A DNA stretch of 64,000 nt from Halorubrum sp. BOL3-1 (GTDB lineage Archaea > Halobacteriota > Halobacteria > Halobacteriales > Haloferacaceae), in the NCBI RefSeq assembly GCF_004114375.1, contig NZ_CP034692.1, positions 1,798,001 through 1,862,000 of the forward strand, written 5' to 3'. Below the pieces are notes generated by a model. It saw only the letters and a program-made list of their open reading frames with translations. It was not told the origin of the DNA and searched no databases. A program made the translations under genes and the position numbers. Positions 101 through 1,967 of the stretch are shown here, piece by piece; positions within the stretch are counted from its first letter, which is position 1, and every line of letters begins with the position of its first letter.

Positions 101-874
101 CTACGGCGCGTCGACGCGCTCCGTGAAGCCGAACCGCGGCTTGACATCGGTCACGGCGACGGTGAGCGTCTCGTCCACCTCGGCGTCGACGAAGAGGGTG
201 TACCCGTCGACGTAGGCGATGCCGTCGCCCTCGTCGCCCTCCTCCTCGACGGTCACCTCAACCCGGTCGCCTTCGGAGACGGGTGACTCGGTGTACCCCT
301 TCGCGACGAGGTACACCTCCGAGGAGGCGTCCCGCGAGGCGGGCGGCGAGACGGTTCGGACGTACTGGAACGACTCGCTCACGTCGTCGCGGAAGGCGTC
401 GAGGTCCTCGCCTTGGAACACCTTGACGACGAAGTCGCCGCCGGACGCGAGCAGCTCGGCGGCGGCCTCGAACGCCTGCCGAGCGAGGTGGACCGACCGG
501 GCGTGGTCGAGGTTGTACTCGCCGGTCATGTTCGGCGCCATGTCGCTCACCACGACGTCCGCGCCCCCCTCGTCGACCGCCTCCCGAAGGTAGTGGCGGG
601 TGCGCTCCTCGGTCATGTCGCCGCGGATCGTCTCCACGTCGTGCTCCTCAAGATCGTCGATGCGCTGGAGGTCGACGCCGACGACGGTCCCGCTCTCACC
701 GACTTCCTCGGCCGCGACCTGGAGCCACCCGCCGGGCGCGGCGCCGAGGTCGACCACGGTATCGCCGCGGTCGAGCAGGTCCGCCTCCTCGTCGAGCTGT
801 TTCAGCTTGTAGGCGGACCGGGCGCGGTACCCCTGCTGTTTGGATCGGTTGTAGTAGTCGTCTTTGCCGCTCAT
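101..874 (-). CDS. rlmE: 23S rRNA (uridine-2'-O-)methyltransferase RlmE/FtsJ with C-terminal TRAM domain
   Basis: A 257-residue protein predicted to 2'-O-methylate a uridine of 23S rRNA during 50S assembly, using SAM. The N-terminus (RSKQQGYRARSAYKL) is the typical FtsJ start. The SAM-binding loop VVDLGAAPGGW is near residue 40. The catalytic K-D-K-E set is recognisable: Lys in the N-terminal segment, Asp in SDMAPN, Lys in VVKVFQG, Glu in the SSEVYLVAK strand. Residues about 200-257 form a TRAM-type beta-barrel RNA-binding tail, a common archaeal addition absent from E. coli RlmE. The gene stands alone, about 60 bp from the GNAT gene on the same strand. The annotation is secure; only the exact target nucleotide is inferred from the family. 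Confidence 0.95.
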   Translation of the reverse strand: MSGKDDYYNRSKQQGYRARSAYKLKQLDEEADLLDRGDTVVDLGAAPGGWLQVAAEEVGESGTVVGVDLQRIDDLEEHDVETIRGDMTEERTRHYLREAVDEGGADVVVSDMAPNMTGEYNLDHARSVHLARQAFEAAAELLASGGDFVVKVFQGEDLDAFRDDVSESFQYVRTVSPPASRDASSEVYLVAKGYTESPVSEGDRVEVTVEEEGDEGDGIAYVDGYTLFVDAEVDETLTVAVTDVKPRFGFTERVDAP

Positions 875-935: not shown

Positions 936-1391
936 TCACACTCGCCGGCGGCCGACGCGTCGGCCCTCGTCGGCGTCGTCGTCGACCGAGAACCCGACTC
1001 CCTCGTAGAAGCGGCTCAGTTCGGCGTCGAAGCCCGACGTAACGCGGTCGACGTGGGAGTCCGACTCTCCCCGGCGGACCGCGGCCGCGACGAGCGCCGA
1101 GCCGATGCCGCGGCCGCGCCGAGACCGCCGCACAGCGACGGCGTCGACGTGGAGTCGAGCGGGGTCGGGACGCGTCGCGACGAGCGCGCCGACGACCCCG
1201 CCGGTGCGCGTCGATCGGGCGACGAGCGCGTCGCCGGCCGCGATCCGGTCGGCGACGGTGTCGGCGTCGGTTTCGAGCATCGCGGCATCGAGGACCCGGA
1301 GGATATCGAGCCGGTCGTCGGGAGTCGCCGGCTCGACGGCGACATCGGCGGGCGAGTCGGTGTCGGCGGCGGGCGAGTCGTCGGCAGTCAC
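936..1391 (-). CDS. GNAT family N-acetyltransferase
   Basis: A 151-residue protein of the GCN5-related acetyltransferase fold. The acetyl-CoA pyrophosphate-binding motif A is clear (RRSRRGRGIGSALV, about residues 88-101), preceded by the beta-4 strand LHVDAVAVR and followed by the FYEGVGF segment typical of the C-terminal half. The acceptor substrate cannot be told from sequence. The ATG overlaps the stop of the upstream SAMP-like gene by 4 bp (ATGA), so the two are probably translationally coupled. This is notable because lysine acetylation and sampylation compete for lysines, but a functional link is only an inference. The arginine-rich C-terminus runs up to the stop. Confidence 0.85.
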   Translation of the reverse strand: MTADDSPAADTDSPADVAVEPATPDDRLDILRVLDAAMLETDADTVADRIAAGDALVARSTRTGGVVGALVATRPDPARLHVDAVAVRRSRRGRGIGSALVAAAVRRGESDSHVDRVTSGFDAELSRFYEGVGFSVDDDADEGRRVGRRRV

Positions 1392-1606
1392 AGTGTGAAC
1401 TCGCCCGAACCGCCCTTGATCAGTCGCAGAATTTTGACCGACTCGGCGTCGACGACGCCGTCGCCCGGCACCGGCGAGCCGTCGACCAGCGCCGACGCCT
1501 CCTGCGGGTGGTAGCCCGCCGCGCGGATCAGGTCGTCGTACGTCGCGTCGGCGGCGAGGCTGTACTCGTCGGTCCCCTCGCCGACGACCTCGACGGTCAC
1601 GTCCAT
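1388..1606 (-). CDS. samp2: Small archaeal modifier protein (SAMP2-like ubiquitin fold) with a six-residue C-terminal tail
   Basis: A 72-residue beta-grasp protein. The start (MDVTVEVVGE) and the end of the fold (VKILRLIKGG) match SAMP2-type proteins, which are attached to lysines or donate sulfur for tRNA thiolation after C-terminal adenylation by the E1-like UbaA. Known SAMPs end exactly at the diglycine. Here translation continues for SGEFTL before TGA, and those codons run into the start of the GNAT gene. The tail would have to be removed by a JAMM/MPN-type desampylase before activation, as for ubiquitin precursors. Alternatively this is a ThiS/MoaD-like homolog that is not conjugated. 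The reading was checked base by base at 1388-1420. Confidence 0.85.
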   Translation of the reverse strand: MDVTVEVVGEGTDEYSLAADATYDDLIRAAGYHPQEASALVDGSPVPGDGVVDAESVKILRLIKGGSGEFTL

Positions 1607-1649: not shown

Positions 1650-1967
1650 TCACCGCGTCGACCGCTGTTCGCGGACGTTCCACTTCCAGAGGAGCCACAC
1701 CGTCGGGGCGGCGACGGCGGCGGTCACGAGCGCTCCGGGCCGGGGGACCGCGCCGGTCCACGCGTCGACGGCGAGGAGTCCGACTCCCGCGGCCGCGGCG
1801 ACGAGGACGGCCGCCGCGTCGCGGGCGAGTTCCGCCTCGCGCTCGGGCGGGAGGTCGCCGTCGTAGCCGGCGATCAGGCCGACCGCGCCGCGGCGGTGAA
1901 TGGTCCAGGCGAGCAGGAGGCAGAGCCCGGTCGGGAAGCCGAGCAGGAGGGTTTCGGCAACGGCCAT
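1650..1967 (-). CDS. Small haloarchaeal membrane protein, unknown function
   Basis: I do not recognise a named function. With the ATG at 1967 the product is 105 residues (MAVAETLLLGFPTGLC...). It has a first membrane segment at residues 3-20, a short acidic stretch containing DGDLPPEREAELARDAA, then two hydrophobic segments separated by a short loop and a basic end (WKWNVREQRSTR). The reading frame stays open for 56 further codons upstream, but those run through repetitive DNA and lack haloarchaeal codon preference, so the internal ATG is preferred. A TATA-like GGTATAAG about 25 bp upstream supports a leaderless start. The shape resembles DUF3784-type small membrane proteins, but only weakly. 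Confidence 0.65.
   Translation of the reverse strand: MAVAETLLLGFPTGLCLLLAWTIHRRGAVGLIAGYDGDLPPEREAELARDAAAVLVAAAAGVGLLAVDAWTGAVPRPGALVTAAVAAPTVWLLWKWNVREQRSTR

Follow-up and report, generated by a model that had tools for sequence, protein, structure and literature searches.

SAMP2 of Halorubrum sp. BOL3-1 is probably made as a precursor, from which JAMM1 would cut whatever follows the diglycine (GG), leaving the residues behind GG free to drift. The gene is located in the window (i.e., the entire stretch of 64,000 nucleotides analyzed in this study), and the comparison across haloarchaeal genomes suggests that such precursors are confined to the members that encode JAMM1. The features of the locus are listed below by position in the window.

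1388..1606, minus strand: putative SAMP2 precursor gene, 72 aa, comprising a beta-grasp core of 66 residues followed by SGEFTL and a TGA stop
1409..1414, minus strand: diglycine codons (residues 65-66), with JAMM1 predicted to cut behind residue 66
1391..1408, minus strand: C-terminal tail SGEFTL (residues 67-72), disordered, hypervariable and predicted to be removed
936..1391, minus strand: acetyltransferase gene of the GNAT type, 151 aa, GTG start, PF13508/PF00583; certain relatives carry a homologue of its domain as a fusion with SAMP2
1388..1391, minus strand: stop/start overlap of the SAMP2 and GNAT genes, four bases with the sequence GTGA

The product of the minus-strand ORF at 1388-1606, MDVTVEVVGEGTDEYSLAADATYDDLIRAAGYHPQEASALVDGSPVPGDGVVDAESVKILRLIKGGSGEFTL, bears the C-terminus IKGGSGEFTL. 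This ORF and its matches to Pfam PF21965 (E = 1.1e-27; 97 bits against a cut-off of 27) and NCBIfam NF041919 (E = 7e-29; 100 bits against a cut-off of 70) agree with the original prediction of a SAMP2-like modifier with six residues beyond the diglycine. The NF041919 model comprises 66 positions, and its end coincides with residue 66, the second Gly. The relatives of the product in PDB were SAMP2 of H. volcanii (2l32 and 4hrs) and the JAMM1-bound SAMP2 of P. furiosus (5lda_B). The AlphaFold model had a pLDDT of 85 overall and of ~90 in the beta-grasp core, while that of residues 66-72 was below 50, disorder beginning at residue 66. The best PDB matches of the model were SAMP2 (2l32 and 4hrs) and next ubiquitin, in line with a beta-grasp fold. 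As GG is present but followed by SGEFTL, the encoded C-terminus is not the diglycine, and we class the tailed protein as a putative precursor form of SAMP2, not as ready-made SAMP2. Upstream of the SAMP2 gene, 1653-1967 (minus strand) encodes a small predicted membrane protein with no Pfam or NCBIfam match, and downstream of the SAMP2-GNAT pair, 101-874 (minus strand) encodes an FtsJ/RrmJ-type rRNA methyltransferase with a C-terminal TRAM domain.

The comparison of ortholog C-termini, which the original prediction had called for, revealed that the tails are genus-wide and variable while GG is constant. All of the 49 Halorubrum genomes with detectable SAMP2 encode residues beyond GG and none stops at GG; the agreement among 49 species rules out a sequencing error or a wrong frame behind the tail. 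In 47 of these genomes the tails are short, at 2-25 residues, 42 of the 47 short tails are distinct from one another, and their identity is ~0.43-0.48 where the SAMP2 cores are 92-96% identical. Both Gly residues are invariant in the 49 genomes, with GGC, GGG, GGA and GGT all in use and synonymous changes at both codons. Since Gly is invariant despite the use of all four codons, we regard the internal GG as being under selection as protein. An encoded C-terminus other than GG could also mean that the tailed SAMP2 acts without activation, conjugation and sulfur transfer having been lost. This reading is hardly credible, given the invariance of GG under synonymous codon turnover, the presence of UbaA in the window genome (a single PF00899 hit with an E of 7e-83 and a GAGGLGS motif), and our search of the same genome, in which no second SAMP2 was found.

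Of 120 tails, 86 had Ala or Ser immediately after GG (P1'), as opposed to ~23% at later tail positions, in a count that ignores the relatedness of genomes. No motif shared among the tails was found beyond the small residues adjoining GG, and the tail as a conserved pro-peptide was rejected on this ground. The same results bear on the control step that had been proposed for the tail, here taken as a regulatory pro-peptide, the slow or conditional removal of which by JAMM1 sets the level of activatable SAMP2. JAMM1 would then be a gatekeeper, as E1 cannot adenylate a blocked C-terminus, and the tail is indeed kept throughout Halorubrum. Nevertheless, neither motif nor length is conserved, the tails diverge much more rapidly than the core, close relatives with JAMM1 lack a tail, and JAMM1 is a general desampylase. 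We thus consider a regulatory tail unlikely and leave the proposed control step unsupported; the tail appears to be mostly tolerated, although neutrality alone falls short of accounting for its occurrence in all Halorubrum. As a separate observation, the loop preceding the helix in SAMP2 of family f7 (L111-L138) is extended by a variable insertion, ~25 residues at its longest.

The window genome has two JAMM genes. JAMM1 (L139) scored 145 bits with the NF041370 desampylase model (cut-off of 130) and retains an intact HxH-x10-D motif (HSH-x10-D). The other gene (L140) encodes a JAMM2-like protein of 135 aa with an HSHP motif. Among 392 genomes of the order, JAMM1 was found in 280 but not in 112, absence being defined as no match at an E of 1e-3 or better with L139 as the single-sequence query, by which a divergent JAMM1 could be missed. 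For the members of the window's family outside this search, PF14464 scores decided whether JAMM1 was counted as present, and its absence in five of them rests on weak scores. The C-terminal ends of SAMP2 were read from 348 haloarchaeal genomes, including 101 without JAMM1. With JAMM1, 119 of 246 SAMP2s were tailed or fused behind the invariant GG and 127 ended at GG; without JAMM1, all 101 ended at GG and none was tailed or fused (Fisher test by genome, p ~3e-23). A tailed SAMP2 was also detected in one genome (G444; 79% complete) of unclassified JAMM1 status. Throughout the classified genomes of this survey, the putative precursor occurred only together with the protease, which favors the precursor form suggested in the original prediction.

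The association is phylogenetically structured, as 49 of the 119 genomes with a tailed or fused SAMP2 are of Halorubrum. When counted by genus, tails or fusions were present in 29/67 genera with JAMM1 and in 0/21 without (p = 9e-5), and a permutation of the JAMM1 labels between genera of the same family gave 5.2 expected against 0 observed (p = 0.0005; three unparsed sequences, all ending at GG, were left out of the permutation set and counted later). As both the genus-level and within-family tests are still significant, the association stands despite the phylogenetic structure. It does not depend on the neighboring gene either, since the association holds both with an adjacent GNAT gene (70/147 with JAMM1 against 0/68 without) and in its absence (26/76 against 0/33).

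Another protease (trimming by a carboxypeptidase or the proteasome) might remove the tail, with the association with JAMM1 reflecting shared ancestry. The presence of JAMM1 is clade-structured, and the cleavage in Halorubrum is a prediction from sequence. On the other hand, shared ancestry hardly agrees with the within-family permutation or with the JAMM1-less clades of several families being uniformly tailless, and HvJAMM1 is required in vivo to cut a linear SAMP fusion (PMC4443979). JAMM2 as the processing enzyme was judged insufficient, as a JAMM hit of the strength of L140 persists in the JAMM1-less members of the window's family. Altogether, we see removal by another protease as highly improbable and retain JAMM1 as the candidate enzyme, keeping in mind that SAMP2 is tailless in approximately half of the genomes that encode JAMM1.

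The stop/start overlap with the acetyltransferase gene had been taken as ATGA, but the sequence reads GTGA, and it had been suggested that the tail may persist solely for the translational coupling to the GNAT gene. The GTGA overlap is found at 46 of the 47 unfused SAMP2-GNAT loci in Halorubrum, as this idea would predict. However, tailless SAMP2 genes of relatives also overlap the GNAT start via GGA-TGA or GGG-TGA, and the tail as a product of the gene overlap was rejected accordingly. Furthermore, 26 genomes have a tail without an adjacent GNAT gene, and the 68 genomes with GNAT but without JAMM1 are all tailless. Coupling as the sole reason for the tail is contradicted by these cases, and we deem it very unlikely. 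No constant Shine-Dalgarno motif was found inside the tail in the eight genomes inspected.

Natural fusions extend the range of sequences that can follow GG. SAMP2-GG was found in frame with a GNAT domain, homologous to the product of the gene downstream of the window SAMP2, in two genomes of the Halorubrum clade (L035 and L038), in all 10 sampled members of a genus related to Halorubrum (g13), and in a distant archaeon of another family (G063). In four genera (g3, g18, g20 and f17.g37), SAMP2-GG is in frame with an AhpC/TSA peroxiredoxin. The Pfam domain check covered six of the SAMP2 fusions. There is no ATG, GTG or TTG start between GG and the GNAT domain in L038, implying that this enzyme is presumably produced solely in the fused form; an internal ATG is present in L035. 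The model of the L038 fusion displayed two confident domains, with GG within the least ordered segment between them.

UbaA, the E1-like enzyme, needs a C-terminal Gly, and a blocked C-terminus is not adenylated. We propose that SAMP2 is translated with six residues past the diglycine and that JAMM1, a zinc metalloprotease known as a desampylase, the gene for which lies at another place in the genome, cleaves it behind Gly66. UbaA would then activate the Gly thus exposed at the C-terminus, enabling conjugation to proteins and sulfur transfer to tRNA. As JAMM1 would remove anything behind GG, the tail may be under little selection, such that it drifts in both length and sequence and the loss of a stop codon lets the next gene fuse in frame. 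Without JAMM1, any tail would block activation, and the gene would thus need to stop right after GG. From sequence comparison, we infer the cleavage, the identity of the protease in Halorubrum sp. BOL3-1, and the neutrality of the tail.

In the usual account, SAMPs are made ready for use, with GG exposed at the C-terminus, and JAMM1 is the desampylase by which conjugation is undone. Our survey suggests that in much of the haloarchaea JAMM1 also acts upstream of this, in SAMP2 maturation, and predicts that cells can tolerate the loss of jamm1 only where SAMP2 stops at GG. In the window genome, the two further SAMP homologues that were found are also tailed (VAGG-A and VSGG-SVGR), and no SAMP encoded with a free GG end was detected among those found in this genome. 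Whether JAMM1 is a general Ubl-maturation enzyme of haloarchaea, which frees SAMP C-termini, yields equal amounts of modifier and enzyme from natural fusions, and makes the Halorubrum SAMPs dependent on it, is in our view an evenly balanced question. If so, the SAMP2-GNAT, SAMP2-peroxiredoxin and SAMP1-GG protein genes would be ubiquitin-fusion-like, essentially all SAMPs of Halorubrum would need JAMM1 before their first use, and JAMM1 would be near-essential for sampylation and tRNA thiolation in Halorubrum but not in those Haloferax species in which SAMP2 ends at GG. Separately, SAMP1-like genes of Halorubrum (L142; L262, L265, L270 and L277) end with VAGG plus a short tail. The SAMP1-like gene overlaps by ATGA the gene for a GG-ending protein of 118 aa that matches neither Pfam nor NCBIfam models (possibly arCOG06308), and the two are a single ORF (Ubl-GG-linker-GG protein) in 4 of the 30 loci examined.

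In eukaryotes, ubiquitin is freed from ubiquitin-ribosomal protein fusions, and UFM1, SUMO and NEDD8 from their precursors, by a cut after GG. The proposed release of SAMP2 from its tail or fusion partner is alike, and the eukaryotic comparison drawn in the original prediction is apt as an analogy, which the fusions bring closer; the SAMP2 fusions would be the naturally occurring archaeal equivalent of ubiquitin fusion genes. However, the eukaryotic proteases are different and the partners of SAMP2 are GNAT and peroxiredoxin, so the analogy is of mechanism rather than of shared membership. SAMP2 of H. volcanii (HVO_0202; 2l32 and 4hrs) shares the family, fold and LRLIKGG end with the window SAMP2, for which activation by UbaA is expected, but the former ends at GG and the latter is six residues longer.

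Archaeal Ubl precursors, JAMM cleavage of linear Ubl fusions, and the SAMP2-GNAT neighbourhood (PMC2948915) are already known. In the open-access literature, to which our search was directed, we found no prior report of genus-wide SAMP2 tails or their restriction to JAMM1 genomes, nor of SAMP2-GNAT or SAMP2-peroxiredoxin fusions; any of these may have been reported in subscription papers. The neighbourhood (arCOG00535-arCOG04721) was listed for Halobacteria in 2010, with an adjacency identical to that in the window; the tails and the in-frame fusions with GNAT or peroxiredoxin found here are not described in the consulted portion of that account (PMC2948915). In Caldiarchaeum, CsJAMM cleaves the SAMP precursors, and CsRpn11 fails to cleave CsUb-pre when the P1'/P2' residues are bulky (PMC6043591). 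This system shares with ours an archaeal Ubl with residues past GG, maturation by JAMM, and small residues favored near the cut, but belongs to another phylum, and neither a lineage-wide comparison of tail and protease nor GNAT or peroxiredoxin fusions are described in the consulted part of that source. HvJAMM1 cuts linear SAMP1-MoaE exactly after GG both in vitro and in vivo, restoring function (PMC4443979). As in the tailed SAMP2, Ubl-GG is followed by further polypeptide in SAMP1-MoaE, which is an artificial SAMP1 fusion in Haloferax, whereas the SAMP2 tails and fusions presented here are natural and their cleavage is predicted.
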